A stretch of 64,000 nucleotides of DNA from Deltaproteobacteria bacterium RIFOXYD12_FULL_56_24 (GTDB lineage Bacteria > Desulfobacterota > Desulfobulbia > Desulfobulbales > Desulfurivibrionaceae): NCBI GenBank assembly GCA_001799285.1, contig MGTD01000065.1, forward strand, positions 1 through 64,000. The letters are read 5' to 3'. The first letter of the stretch is position 1; every line of letters starts with the position of its first letter. The notes beneath the pieces were generated by a model. The model saw only the letters and a program-made list of their open reading frames with translations. It was not told where the DNA came from and ran no database searches. The position numbers and the translations under genes are program-made. Of this stretch, positions 1 to 5,207 are shown in pieces.

Positions 1-93
1 CGCGCCGAAAGTATCATTGTCGGCGCTGTCATGCATCTCAGGCAAGACCCCCGATACTGGGAAGACCGTGAACAAAAATCCTTCGATGGCTGA
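1..93 (+). CDS. C-terminal end of a ParE/RelE-like toxin (partial)
   Basis: An open frame entering from the left edge encodes 30 residues and then a TGA. The residues include GAVMHLRQDPRYWEDR, which resembles the 'AVMHxRRxPxYW' end of many ParE/RelE-family toxins (mRNA interferases or gyrase poisons). Only the tail is in the window, so the antitoxin and catalytic core cannot be judged. It lies about 240 bases upstream of a second antitoxin/toxin pair, which suggests a cluster of toxin-antitoxin loci. Bases 94-335 contain no convincing gene. The identification rests on this short motif. Confidence 0.5.
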   Translation, partial: RAESIIVGAVMHLRQDPRYWEDREQKSFDG

Positions 94-335
94 AGGACAC
101 ACGAGCCAAGTAACTCGGGTAAATATCGGCCAATACCATCTTGTCTGGGAATTAAGTATTAGGCGTTCCCCGTTTCCTCATTGCTCCGGGCCTTGTGGGG
201 CATTAATGTTCATAATACAATTGAACCCCCGATAAAAAGAAAGTGGTTTCCCCGTTGAAGGTCTTTAAAGAATGATATCGTCCGTGTTCCGGCCCGTTTT
301 ATCGGGTCACACCATGTGCCGCAAGAGGTTTGCCG

Positions 336-524
336 ATGCTGGCCGCCAAAGAAGAAGTGAAGCTTATTCTGGATCAATTACCGAATGACGCCACGATTGA
401 GGACATCCAGTATCACCTCTATATCCGCCAGAAGATAGATCACGGTCTCAATGACATCGAAGCCGGGAATACTTTCTCCGCGGAAGGGTTCGACAAAAGG
501 ATGGCCCAGTGGTTCGAATCGTAA
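336..524 (+). CDS. Antitoxin-like small protein of a ParE/RelE module
   Basis: This acidic protein of about 62 residues has the pattern LPNDATIEDIQYHLYIRQKI, then a GLNDIEAG stretch and an RMAQWF end. That pattern is typical of the uncharacterised antitoxin-like partners encoded just before RelE/ParE toxins. ATG 336 was chosen because AAGAGG lies about seven bases upstream; a TTG at 330 would add two residues. The downstream toxin frame begins inside this gene (GTG at 509), a 16-base overlap that implies translational coupling. It should bind and neutralise the toxin and repress its own promoter, as is usual in this family. The toxin is frameshifted, so the antitoxin may now be an orphan. Confidence 0.65.
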   Translation: MLAAKEEVKLILDQLPNDATIEDIQYHLYIRQKIDHGLNDIEAGNTFSAEGFDKRMAQWFES

Positions 525-818
525 GATGGACCGCCACCGCCATGGAGGATTTGGCCGAGGCTGCCGAATTCATCGCCCAAGGACTCTCCATATTACGCCT
601 CATCCCTTGTCCGAGAGGCAAGGGCCGCCTCCCGTTCCCTTGGCAATTTTGCCGAACGCGGCAGAGTGGTGCCTGAATGTGAGGACCAGACGATCCGCGA
701 ACTTTTCGTCAAAAACTACCGCCTTATCTATCGGCATACGACCGATCACGTATTTATCCTTGTTTTTGTCCACGACGCCCGCGATTTGAGCGCCATCTGG
801 AGACGAAGATCGGGTTAG
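509..818 (+). pseudogene. Frameshifted ParE/RelE-family toxin
   Basis: Starting at GTG 509 the frame reads MVRIVRWTATAMEDLAEAAE and on to FIAQ, the classical ParE amino end. At the GG of 581-582 there is one extra base. In the next frame the protein resumes with DSPYYASSLVREARAASRSL and continues through GRVVPE, IRELFVKNYRLIYR and VFILVFVHDARDLS to TAG at 816-818. Together the two pieces make a full-length toxin of about 102 residues with the expected conserved Arg and Tyr region. As read, the gene cannot make the intact toxin. This is either a true inactivating indel or a sequencing error at the GG. The 16-base overlap with the antitoxin supports the start. Confidence 0.75.
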
Positions 819-1113
819 CGAGAGTACCCCGCGACCTGCCTGCGTGTTCGGCCAAACAGATTTCATCTCCAAGTGAACATTCCCATGCCGAAGTGGCACC
901 CATAACCCAATTAATCAAGAACGTCCTCTGGCTGTTCCCTGAGTCACCGGCTTTGCCGTTGGGTAGCTGACTTTTTTTCTAACAACTTTATGCTTGTCAA
1001 TCCCTGCCCTGTTGTTTAAGCTGGCCTCCTCGCTGTTCAGATAAATGCCATCGTGGGGGAAAGGCATGCCGGGACCGAGTATCGCTAACAGCCGTCAACA
1101 ACCAGGAAAACGC

Positions 1114-1155
1114 AAGCCGCTTCGGGAGATGATCTGCCCGTGAGCGGCTTTTTTT
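1114..1155 (+). terminator. Strong intrinsic terminator
   Basis: AAGCCGCT (1114-1121) pairs with AGCGGCTT (1143-1150). An inner stem pairs CGGG near 1123 with CCCG near 1137. A run of seven Ts ends at 1155. No coding gene ends nearby on the plus strand, so it may terminate a small RNA or a decayed transcript from the toxin-antitoxin region. Confidence 0.75.
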
Positions 1156-1256
1156 GTGCGTTGCCCTGATTGCATCAGAGGGGATTTTTGCATAATGCGT
1201 GACAAAGTCCCCATAGGTGCAGATCATGGCGGCAGGAAAAGCTGATTTTCCAGACC

Positions 1257-1290
1257 TGGCCCCACTTATTTTCTGGCCCCACTTATTTTC
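1257..1290. repeat. Tandem duplication of a 17-base unit
   Basis: TGGCCCCACTTATTTTC occurs twice head to tail (1257-1273 and 1274-1290). It ends eight bases before the left boundary of the integron cassette and may mark the insertion neighbourhood. Confidence 0.9.
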
Positions 1291-1298
1291 CTTACTGG

Positions 1299-1991
1299 TT
1301 AGAACTCTCATGAAACTCTTGGTGCTACTCGTCGGATTGCTCTCTCCTCTCGCCAATGCTGGCGTCTTCTCTACGGAACATGTGCAGATTTATCCATCAG
1401 ATTGGCCAAAGCTCTCTGGCATGTCAGACACTTGCGTTGAAGTCCAAGGTACTTTTGTTGATCCGAATATTTGGCGATGGGAGCGAGAGGAGAATCCTGG
1501 TTCTCCATTAGGATCTAAATACGGCGGAACCCGCGAGGCAGCTTGGATTGTATTTGGCCTACCCGCTCAAGACGTTCGCTCGGAAGACAAAAAGGTAAAG
1601 TCGCGGGTATTCACAATCTCGATTGATCCCGATAAATCCGTAACTGTCAGATACTCGATTGATGAAAAAGTAGTCGCGTCGAGATCTTTCACTAAAGATA
1701 AATTGTCATGTGGAAAGGACGGACTCACGATCACAACTCTCAAACGATCAGGTGACGTTCTCGATAAATTGCCGAATGAGGGTCACACGATACGGCACAG
1801 CACGATCTATAAGCTGAACGAACATCTTTATATCAAGACCACATACGAAACAAATGCGAGAGTGTTTTACATCGTCCCTCAGTCATTCCTGAATGTCGCG
1901 TGGTTCAGATTTTCGGAGCGCCCAAAGTGAAGAGTTCTAACCCAGCGTTCGAGCGGGACACCGCAAAATCGCGGCGCCCCTCAACTTTACG
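1299..1991 (+). mobile_element. Integron gene cassette (one gene plus attC)
   Basis: The left boundary is G/TTAGAAC (1298-1305). The right side is an attC whose first core site, GTTCTAAC (1934-1941), is the exact reverse complement of that left boundary. This is expected if the two were joined in the circular form of one cassette. The 693-base cassette encodes one secreted-protein gene. No integrase, attI or second attC lies in the window. It is therefore either a lone cassette at a secondary site or the remnant of an array. It occupies the place where trpBA would often follow trpF. Confidence 0.8.
1310..1930 (+). CDS. Cassette-encoded secreted protein of unknown function
   Basis: This 206-residue protein has no family I recognise. 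ATG 1310 gives a clean signal peptide, MKLLVLLVGLLSPLANA followed by G, so export is likely. An in-frame ATG at 1217 lies outside the cassette and would bury the signal. The mature part is rich in beta-type alternation and charged residues and has two Cys (near DTCVEV and LSCGKD) that could form a disulfide. The start lies five bases after the cassette boundary, a common arrangement in integron cassettes, so expression probably depends on an outside promoter. Its A+T content is higher than that of the neighbouring trp genes, consistent with transfer. Confidence 0.75.
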   Translation: MKLLVLLVGLLSPLANAGVFSTEHVQIYPSDWPKLSGMSDTCVEVQGTFVDPNIWRWEREENPGSPLGSKYGGTREAAWIVFGLPAQDVRSEDKKVKSRVFTISIDPDKSVTVRYSIDEKVVASRSFTKDKLSCGKDGLTITTLKRSGDVLDKLPNEGHTIRHSTIYKLNEHLYIKTTYETNARVFYIVPQSFLNVAWFRFSERPK

Positions 1992-1997
1992 TTATAC
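1934..1997 (+). other. attC recombination site
   Basis: This is a 64-base imperfect palindrome with attC architecture. The outer core site GTTCTAAC is followed by an arm GTTCGAGCGGG. That arm pairs with CCCCTCAAC on the other side, leaving two unpaired C bases like the extrahelical bases that give attC its polarity. The central stem is CCGC/GCGG. The site ends with the core site GTTATAC (1991-1997). The order and spacing match the aadA-type attC sites. Integron integrase would recombine it as a folded single strand. Confidence 0.82.
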
Positions 1998-2138
1998 GGC
2001 TCCTTCGACATCGAGCGAACTCATGAGTATTGCGGAATATCAACATGGCATCTGTTGAGACTAAACTTCAATTCAGGCGCATCTCTAGGGCGATGGAAGC
2101 CCAAGCCGAGGTGGCCTCAGGAACTGGGCATGCGTCTC

Positions 2139-2807
2139 TCAACTGTCGGCTGACAAACGAGATACAGCAGCATCCACCGCCGCTACCTGGGCAATGGCTG
2201 CCCTTACCTTATCAATATCCTTGCGACCGGGAGCAAACTCCACCCCGGAATTCAGATCCACGGCAAAGGGACGCGCCTGCCGAATCGCCTCACCCACATT
2301 CTCAGGGGTGAGGCCACCCGCCAGAACAACCGGACTTACAGGCGACAGTTTTTTCAGCAGACTCCAGGCAAAGGTCTGCCCGGTGCCACCGGCAAGCTTC
2401 TCCTGAAAGGTGTCAAACAAAAAGGCGGCAACCTTTCCGGCATAGGGCGCCAGGTCATCCGTGCTCAGGGAGTCCTTCACCCGAAAAGCCTTCAGCACCC
2501 GGCAGGCGATTGCCGCGCAATAGTCGGGGGTCTCTGACCCGTGCAGCTGAACCATGGTCAGACCGCAGTAGCGGGCAATCTCGTTCACCTCATCAAGCGG
2601 CTGATCGACAAAAACCCCCACCGCATCAACAAAGGGCGGCAGGCTGGCGACAATTTCCCGAGCCCGCTCCGGCTCAATGTACCGGGGGCTTTGCCCGGCA
2701 AAGATCAGGCCGATCGCGTCCACTCCGGCGGCCACCACTGCGGCGACCTCCGTGCGCTCTCGCATCCCGCATATCTTGATCCGCGTTCGCCCAATCATCT
2801 TTTTCAT
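2139..2807 (-). CDS. trpF: Phosphoribosylanthranilate isomerase
   Basis: This cytoplasmic enzyme catalyses the third committed step of tryptophan synthesis, converting N-(5-phosphoribosyl)anthranilate to its carboxyphenylamino-deoxyribulose isomer. The 222 residues are of normal length for a TIM barrel of this family. Seen motifs are RIKICGMR near residue 9 (catalytic Cys), the FVDQP and VQLHG strands, FLFDT with the catalytic Asp, and the carboxy-terminal phosphate loops LAGGLTPENV and DLNSGVE. Its start overlaps the trpC stop by four bases. It is the last trp gene here: trpB and trpA do not follow, and DNA beyond its stop is accessory. Met4 is an alternative start. Confidence 0.96.
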   Translation of the reverse strand: MKKMIGRTRIKICGMRERTEVAAVVAAGVDAIGLIFAGQSPRYIEPERAREIVASLPPFVDAVGVFVDQPLDEVNEIARYCGLTMVQLHGSETPDYCAAIACRVLKAFRVKDSLSTDDLAPYAGKVAAFLFDTFQEKLAGGTGQTFAWSLLKKLSPVSPVVLAGGLTPENVGEAIRQARPFAVDLNSGVEFAPGRKDIDKVRAAIAQVAAVDAAVSRLSADS

Positions 2808-3577
2808 CCTTGCTCTCTACCCGCCAACGTCCGCAGGGCCTCAGCCGGGTCCGCGGCCCGCATCAGGGTCTCCCCCACCAAGGCCGCCTTTACTCCATGC
2901 GCCGCCAGCCGTACCATGTCCCGATGATCACGAATTCCTGATTCGCTCACCAAGGGGATTTCCACCGGAATCATCTTCTGGAGGCGAAAGGTGGTATTCA
3001 GATCCATGGAAAAATCGCGGAGATCGCGGTTGTTGACCCCGATCAGCAGGCTGCCCGCAGCCACAGCCTTTTCGACCTCCGCCTCGTCATGCACCTCCAC
3101 CAGGGCATCCATGCCCAGCTCCAAGGCCAGGGCCTGATAATCCTGGATCTGGGAAGTCTCCAAAATGGCGGCAATCAGGAGAATAGCATCGGCGCCGTAA
3201 ACCCGCGCCTCCCTGATCTGCAACGGATCGATGATAAAATCCTTGCGCAACACCGGCAGAGCGACCGCCGCCCGCACTGCGGTGAGATAGGCGAGCGAGC
3301 CCTGGAAAAAATCCACATCGGTCAGCACCGACAAGGCTTGAGCCCCACCGGCCTGATAGCTGCGGGCGATGGCCACCGGATCGAAGTCGGCCCGGATCAC
3401 CCCCTTGGAGGGCGAGGCCTTCTTGGCCTCAGCGATGACGGCCACGCCGACAAAGTCGATAAGCGCCCGGATAAAGCCGCGTGGCGGCTCAATCTCCAGT
3501 TCGGGTGCAACAAGGCCTCGGGCCTTGAGGGCTGCAACCTCTTCTTTTTTTCGGGCGACGATGGTGTCGAGGATCAT
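2804..3577 (-). CDS. trpC: Indole-3-glycerol phosphate synthase
   Basis: This enzyme closes the indole ring from carboxyphenylamino-deoxyribulose phosphate, step four of tryptophan synthesis. At 257 residues it is a normal-length TIM barrel. Motifs include an amino-terminal [13 protein letters not shown] helix, [10 protein letters not shown] with the catalytic Lys and substrate loop, [44 protein letters not shown] and the phosphate-binding VSESGI and LVGETLM. It overlaps trpD by four bases upstream and trpF by four bases downstream, so these genes are probably translationally coupled. Confidence 0.97.
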
Positions 3578-4602
3578 TTCCGCACCGAGCGGGAAAAGGC
3601 GATGAGCGCCTCCACCTTGTTGAGCGCCGCGCCGCTGGCCACCACCTCCCGGGCCAGAGCCACGCCGGCGGCAAGATCAGCGGTGCGTCCGGCCGCCATC
3701 AGGGCGGCGCCGGCATTGAGCAGAACCATGTCGAGACAGGGCCCGGCCTCGCCGCCCAACACCAGGCGCAGCTGCACCGCCGCCTCGGCCGCGGTTGTCC
3801 CACCTTTGATCTCGGCCAGGGAGGCCGTAGCCATACCCAGCTCCGAGGGATGGATGCGGTAGGTTGTCAGTTCGCCGTTGGCCCAGTCGGCCACTTTGGT
3901 CGCCCCGGTAATGGTGATCTCGTCGAGATTGCCCTCGCCGCAGACCACCAGAGCGCGCTTGGTGCCAAGCCGCCCCAGCACCCTTGCCAGGGTTTCGGTG
4001 AGGGAGGGATCATACACCCCCATGACCTGAACATTGGCTCCGGCCGGGTTGGTCAGGGGGCCTAAGATATTAAAGATCGTCCGGATGCCGATTTCGCGGC
4101 GCGGGCCGATGGCATGCTTCATCGCCCCATGCAGGGCTGGGGCAAACATGAAACCGATGCCGATCTCCCTGATGCATTGGCCTATCTGCTCCGGGCTCAA
4201 GCTTAAGTCCACCCCCAGAGCCTCCAGCACATCGGCGCTGCCGCAATGGCTGGAGACGGAGCGGTTGCCGTGCTTGGCCACCGGCACCCCCGCAGCGGCC
4301 ACGACAAAGGCCGTGGTGGTGGAAACATTGAAGGTCCCGGAGGCGTCGCCCCCGGTGCCGCAGGTATCGACGAGAATCCCGCCCTCCGCGCCCGCCTCGA
4401 CCCTGGTGGCCTTGGCCCGCATCACCCTGGCCGCGCCGGTGATCTCGTCCACGGTTTCGCCCTTGATCCGCAGGGCGGTGATAAAAGCGCCGATCTGGGC
4501 CTGGGTGGCTTCGCCGCCCATGATGGTTTCCATCACCCCGATCATCTCCGCTTCGCTAAGATCGGTACCCGCCACCACTTTGCCAATGGCCGCTTTCATC
4601 AT
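3574..4602 (-). CDS. trpD: Anthranilate phosphoribosyltransferase
   Basis: This enzyme transfers phosphoribose from PRPP to anthranilate, the second step of tryptophan synthesis. The 342 residues have the nucleoside phosphorylase class III fold. Seen are the helical amino end, the PRPP-binding [18 protein letters not shown] loop (near residue 78), KHGNRSVSS, the hinge FMFAPALH, and [14 protein letters not shown]. There is no amino-terminal glutaminase domain; that is the separate gene trpG. Four-base overlaps link it to trpG and trpC. Confidence 0.97.
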
Positions 4603-5207
4603 GACGGCATCTCCCGGCGTTGCCTGGCAAGGATTTCCGGGTAGTCCGGATCAAGAAAATTCTTCAGCAACTGCACCCCTGCCGGGGTCATGATGGATTC
4701 GGGATGAAATTGCACCCCTTCCACCGGCAGGCTCCGATGTCTTAGCCCCATGAGCTCGCCCTGGTCTGAACGCGCCGAGACCAGCAGACAACCGGGCAGG
4801 TCGGATTCCTGCACCACCAGGGAATGATAGCGCATGGCCTCGAAGGGGTTGGGAAGGCCGGTGAACACCCCTAGACCGTCGTGGCTGATGGGGCTGGTCT
4901 TGCCGTGCATCAGCCGCCCGGCCCGCACCGTTTGTCCGCCAAAGGCCTCGCCCAGGGACTGATGCCCCAGACAGACGCCCAGCACCGGAATCCGGGTGCT
5001 GAAAAAACGGATCGCTTCGATGGAGATGCCTGCCTGGGCCGGCGAACAGGGGCCAGGCGAGATCAGCAGCCGGTCGGGCGCCAGCGCGGCGAGAAAGGCA
5101 AGATCCACCTCGTCGTTGCGAAAGATCTTCATCTCGGCGCCCATTCCCCCAAGGGTCTGGACGATGTTGTAGGTAAAGGAGTCGTAGTTGTCGATAATAA
5201 CGATCAT
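4599..5207 (-). CDS. trpG: Anthranilate synthase glutamine amidotransferase subunit
   Basis: This subunit supplies ammonia from glutamine to TrpE. It is a class I glutaminase of about 202 residues with [14 protein letters not shown] at the start, a nucleophile Cys in GVCLGHQ, and the His/Glu pair in VQFHPES. The ATG at 5207 was chosen over an upstream frame extension because it begins the conserved strand directly and has GAGAAAG just before it. In some bacteria the same protein also serves p-aminobenzoate synthase (PabA). It lies between trpE and trpD, separated from trpE by a palindromic repeat and joined to trpD by a four-base overlap. Confidence 0.95.

Follow-up and report, generated by a model that had tools for sequence, protein, structure and literature searches.

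Surveys of integrons skip single stray cassettes by default because these may be false hits, and the question raised by the locus described here is whether one such candidate is real and, if it is, by what route it came to lie on its own beside a trp gene. The window that was analysed is the opening 64 kb of contig C65, one of 67 contigs in a draft genome of 3.04 Mb; as the contig begins at window base 1, 1.3 kb are visible to the left of the candidate. An earlier note, made from the sequence of the window, had placed an integron gene cassette at 1298-1997, and this proved to be real, with boundaries that were right to within a base. It can be held with considerable confidence that 1299-1991 is a single integron gene cassette stranded in the chromosome downstream of trpF, on the grounds of a match to an attC model from which the site had been left out, inverted edges, covariation in the attC stem, conservation of the attC DNA and the presence of intI remnants elsewhere. 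In the terminology of IntegronFinder users such an element is a SALIN, a single attC lacking an integron-integrase (PMC12690207), and single-attC elements in IntegronFinder 2 can be true positives (PMC9024848).

The attC site and the edges of the cassette

1299..1991 (T1299 to G1991), + strand: very probable integron gene cassette (693 bp), from its 12-bp inverted edges, attC model match and low G+C
1298..1305, + strand: left core site G|TTAGAAC, with the crossover following 1298, from exact reverse complementarity to R'' and adjacent bases
1310..1930, + strand: ORF of the cassette (206 aa; signal peptide seen by inspection), from translation
1935..1997, + strand (strand expected to recombine, -): attC site, 63 bp, from fold, covariance model and conservation
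1935..1941, + strand: attC R'' box TTCTAAC, from sequence and covariance model
1991..1997, + strand: attC R' box GTTATAC, from sequence and covariance model

The textbook consensus for the two core boxes is RYYYAAC/GTTRRRY, from which R'' and R' here are each one base away, a departure that was counted against the cassette reading. The site nevertheless has both boxes, a bulged stem and GTT at the crossover. Its bottom strand folds with stem bulges, but for this single sequence the energy is only modestly better than that of shuffles (z -1.65), and it is this figure that speaks for a chance palindrome or an ordinary terminator having been taken for an attC. The consensus bottom-strand fold of 10 attC sites, by contrast, contains 20 pairs and bulges of the attC kind, with double-sided compensatory changes at 7 of the 20 (in the rows of the attC alignment, N marks closed-up spacing and the excised variable loop). 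An independent line is provided by a covariance model, R3, built from 11 attC sites in arrays of related genomes beside intact intI, registered by hand and trained with the window site left out; it is a small model, so that its E-values are rough and divergent attCs are missed. A search with such a model had been set beforehand as a possible refutation, and the window attC, at 37.2 bits and E 1.4e-6, was its sole match in the 64 kb, no second attC being found there, whilst sites in true arrays, the training sites included, score mostly 18-49 bits. Across the whole genome the window site ranks best and the second match, on contig C28, is also integron-borne. The attC DNA was found in 17 of the 258 genomes of the order that were searched (the genome itself and 16 others), at identities of up to 95%, and the matches in other genomes always end at the attC edges, with differing genes on both sides in those that were read. 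An exact 22-base attC core pattern was absent from the genome contigs database, and an Rfam search of window 1-5000 gave no match. The covariance match, the conservation of attC DNA between unrelated genes and the compensatory stem changes refute the palindrome or terminator reading, against which the inverted cassette edges also tell, and it is left with almost no credence.

Recombination of a circular cassette at G|TT transfers the 3' half of the cassette's R' to the left edge, where it is necessarily complementary to R''. The earlier note had described the left boundary and the attC core as exact reverse complements, and they are so over 12 bp: the left crossover, G1298|T1299, lies inside GGTTAGAACTCT (1297-1308), a sequence exactly reverse-complementary to AGAGTTCTAACC (1931-1942). 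The left edge reads G|TT and then the complement of R''. The same rule holds for many cassettes of relatives. Inverted 12-mer pairs spaced 300-1500 bp apart number just 11 in the whole window, so that chance falls far short of explaining such a pairing at an attC edge specified in advance. The right crossover is G1991|T1992, and bases from 1992 onward belong to the recipient site and not to the cassette. The G+C content of the cassette is 47.6%, compared with 57.2% for the window.

A single ORF (1310-1930) fills the cassette in the same direction as the attC. Its N-terminus reads MKLLVLLVGLLSPLANA/GVF... and its product is probably exported, a prediction made from the leader; as had been proposed, the protein belongs to no known family, there being no match to the 206 aa in Pfam, NCBIfam, PADLOC or PDB, nor among plasmids, viral contigs, genome contigs and 395 genomes of the phylum. 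A predicted structure of this orphan, made without relatives, has a mean pLDDT of 36 and is useless. The ATG lies 11 bases past the crossover, there is no Shine-Dalgarno sequence within the cassette and no promoter for the ORF was found above chance level, which makes its expression doubtful; if it is expressed, it would rely on promoters outside the cassette.

The rearranged flanks

908..1289, + strand: dispersed element abutting the cassette, from copies in the same genome, alignment and an intact relative with a Y1_Tnp gene
1998..2132, no strand assigned: 135 bp separating the cassette from conserved intergenic sequence at trpF, from comparison with relatives
2139..2807, - strand: trpF, conserved neighbour, from comparison with relatives

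The cassette had been described as standing beside the trp genes, and it does adjoin trpF, but not at a simple insertion point, since in relatives that place is occupied by a glycine-zipper gene and/or htrA. Sequence downstream of trpF is common to most relatives, and the neighbour of trpF is the glycine-zipper gene in 13 of the 14 same-genus relatives examined and htrA in the remaining one (G009); htrA is close to trpF in all four relatives checked (G008-G011), and in the genome studied here no close copy of it was found. By this comparison of sequences, the trpF-htrA interval is rearranged in this genome. An empty insertion site was found in none of the 14 same-genus relatives, in all of which the flanks differ, and a search for the same flanks without the attC likewise found no relative that has the same flanks; it is the rearrangement of the locus that prevents an empty site from being demonstrated. 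A short match beside trpF in G009 was considered as an empty site and rejected, being the repeated terminus of a Y1 element.

On its left the cassette abuts a dispersed element (908-1289) made up of a 190-bp core with a strong terminator-like hairpin and a Y1-transposase element terminus, the transposase itself being missing. The core is present in six copies in the genome (also on contigs C11, C39, C8 and C54). On C8 the core is followed by a Y1 (IS200-like) transposase gene that is intact, and the copy in the window corresponds to both ends of the C8 element without that gene; the alignment marks it as a MITE-like derivative, lacking the transposase, of an element of the Y1/IS200 type. The dispersed repeat has no match in Rfam beyond chance level. 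A perfect 17-base tandem repeat, CTGGCCCCACTTATTTT, occupies 1256-1289, just left of the cassette. Further to the left, window 330-789 holds an antitoxin-like ORF, with no Pfam match, followed by a frameshifted partner that by eye resembles a RelE/ParE toxin.

On its right, no homologue of 1998-2132 was found among cassettes or relatives, and this stretch is perhaps the stub of a second cassette.

Integron remnants and scattered attC sites

L096 (contig C28) 1-1550: decayed integron with an intI stump, attI-side DNA, a frameshifted DUF4062 cassette and an attC
L022 (contig C39) 6153-6329: C-terminus of a second intI type, truncated by the end of the contig, 84% to a different intI of G007

The earlier note had seen no integrase or attI. 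This stands for contig C65, which has no integrase-family match and, between window 1 and 2139, no recognised remnant of intI, attI or a further attC; the window accordingly holds one attC, with neither a second attC nor intI in its 64 kb, on a contig that starts at window base 1. It does not stand for the genome, as fragments of intI lie on C28 and C39. The C28 intI starts at 1464 and runs for 28 codons before it is interrupted by sequence containing GGGGTCAGGTC, which resembles the ends of Y1 elements; the 28-aa stump is 96% identical to the intI of G007 and G016, and the attI-side DNA matches the integrons of the same two genomes at 80-83%. No full intI above the family cut-off was found in the genome, but the C39 copy is cut by the contig end, so that an intact intI may exist. 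That the C28 and C39 pieces might be halves of one broken intI was rejected, as they match different intI types. The C39 fragment adjoins Phd/PIN toxin-antitoxin genes and a copy of the dispersed repeat.

Past integron activity in the lineage, which had been proposed, is supported. Of the 17 genomes of the genus, 9 have intI above cut-off, and with R3 one or more attCs at E 0.01 or better were found in 14. The further suggestion that lone cassettes are uncommon fails for this lineage, as several sister genomes that lack intI have single attCs at scattered positions. G008 (3 contigs) has no intI above cut-off and yet has five attC sites, and G011 (20 contigs, 99% complete) is likewise without intI above cut-off, yet has four; at the sensitivity of R3, 4/4 sites in G011 and 3/5 in G008 are solitary within 16-kb neighbourhoods. 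Many of the dispersed attC sites of the genus have an exact R'' complement upstream at cassette distance. G008 and G016 have 1.28 kb in common (91%), starting exactly at R' behind two unrelated cassettes, and the pair shows a natural, exact exchange of cassettes at the G|TT crossover. The shared gene is methyltransferase-like and in both species starts exactly at the attC crossover (L157 8016-9294, L165 6592-7866). One chromosomal interval carries different single cassettes in G011 and G007 (L152 5486-8216, L158 7056-15335), and is a possible cassette hotspot.

Routes to a solitary cassette

The evidence for IntI-mediated arrival near trpF is the edges of the cassette themselves, no empty site or homologous cassette having been found. 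It counts against the solitary reading that a larger rearranged integron could lie beyond the contig start, 1.3 kb to the left. In the mechanism proposed, the circular cassette would have been joined to a G|TT site by the IntI of the lineage via the folded bottom strand of its attC, and we infer that it was IntI that put the cassette at its present place. With no integrase, attI or sister cassettes nearby, it would now be movable only with IntI supplied in trans, and is presumably static.

What took place around it is less certain. The most likely course, to which slightly better than even chances are given, is decay of a larger local integron or array that lost intI and its other cassettes, trimmed by rearrangements involving the Y1-transposase-type repeat, the cassette being a leftover and 1998-2132 the stub of the next one. 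Consistent with this, GTTATAC with an ATG about 30 bp further on resembles the start of a cassette, the trpF-htrA interval is rearranged and the C28 integron is visibly decaying, its intI interrupted by sequence like the termini of the class of repeat next to the cassette. However, the short ORF in 1998-2132 stops after 11 codons, the stretch matches no cassette or relative, and there is no attI or attC remnant to the left of the cassette. The main alternative leading to the same solitary cassette, rather unlikely but to be taken seriously, is that a circulating cassette recombined directly with an attG-like G|TTAT site close to trpF, at a place where there had never been an integron. The solitary location beside a core gene, the lack of an attI and the single attCs at many unlinked positions in sister genomes would all fit, and insertion at attG sites is described as an established route (Loot et al. 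2024, as cited in PMC11023631 and PMC12901181). Against it, no relative has empty flanks and both flanks are non-ancestral, and comparable stray attC clusters in Xanthomonas, which are fairly conserved in position, have been interpreted as ancestral integron activity and contrasted with attG insertion (PMC12444791).

Set beside known systems, the element differs in nothing essential from a SALIN, with one attC, one cassette ORF and no intI nearby, although its crossover edges and the integron remnants of its host are documented as well. It resembles the Xanthomonas CALINs away from ilvD (PMC12444791) in having an attC stranded from intI in a lineage whose integrons are ancestral, but those have two or more cassettes, whereas here there is one, in another lineage and at a rearranged locus. 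Like the attG-inserted cassettes of Loot et al. (2024), as these are described in PMC11023631 and PMC12901181, it lies outside an integron and is bordered by G|TT, but unlike them it has no empty site proving insertion into ancestral sequence. In the G010 integron the first cassette (L038, at about 1238-1706) has the same class of attC (82% over the matched attC part), but is at attI beside an intact intI and carries another gene.

The window cassette is thus an already named kind of element, one stray cassette verified by independent lines, and its gene adds one more orphan, probably exported protein. Close relatives hold similar stranded cassettes, and their sequences suggest that stray cassettes are common in this lineage, an exact natural swap included. 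It is a speculative, and on balance improbable, extension that the genus routinely scatters single cassettes, its integrons repeatedly seeding attG-like sites and then losing the integrase, with Y1-transposase repeats helping the trimming, so that dispersed SALINs and not arrays would be the standing pool of cassettes. The genus is a testing ground for how cassettes come to lie outside integrons, whether through decay of arrays or through insertion at attG sites.
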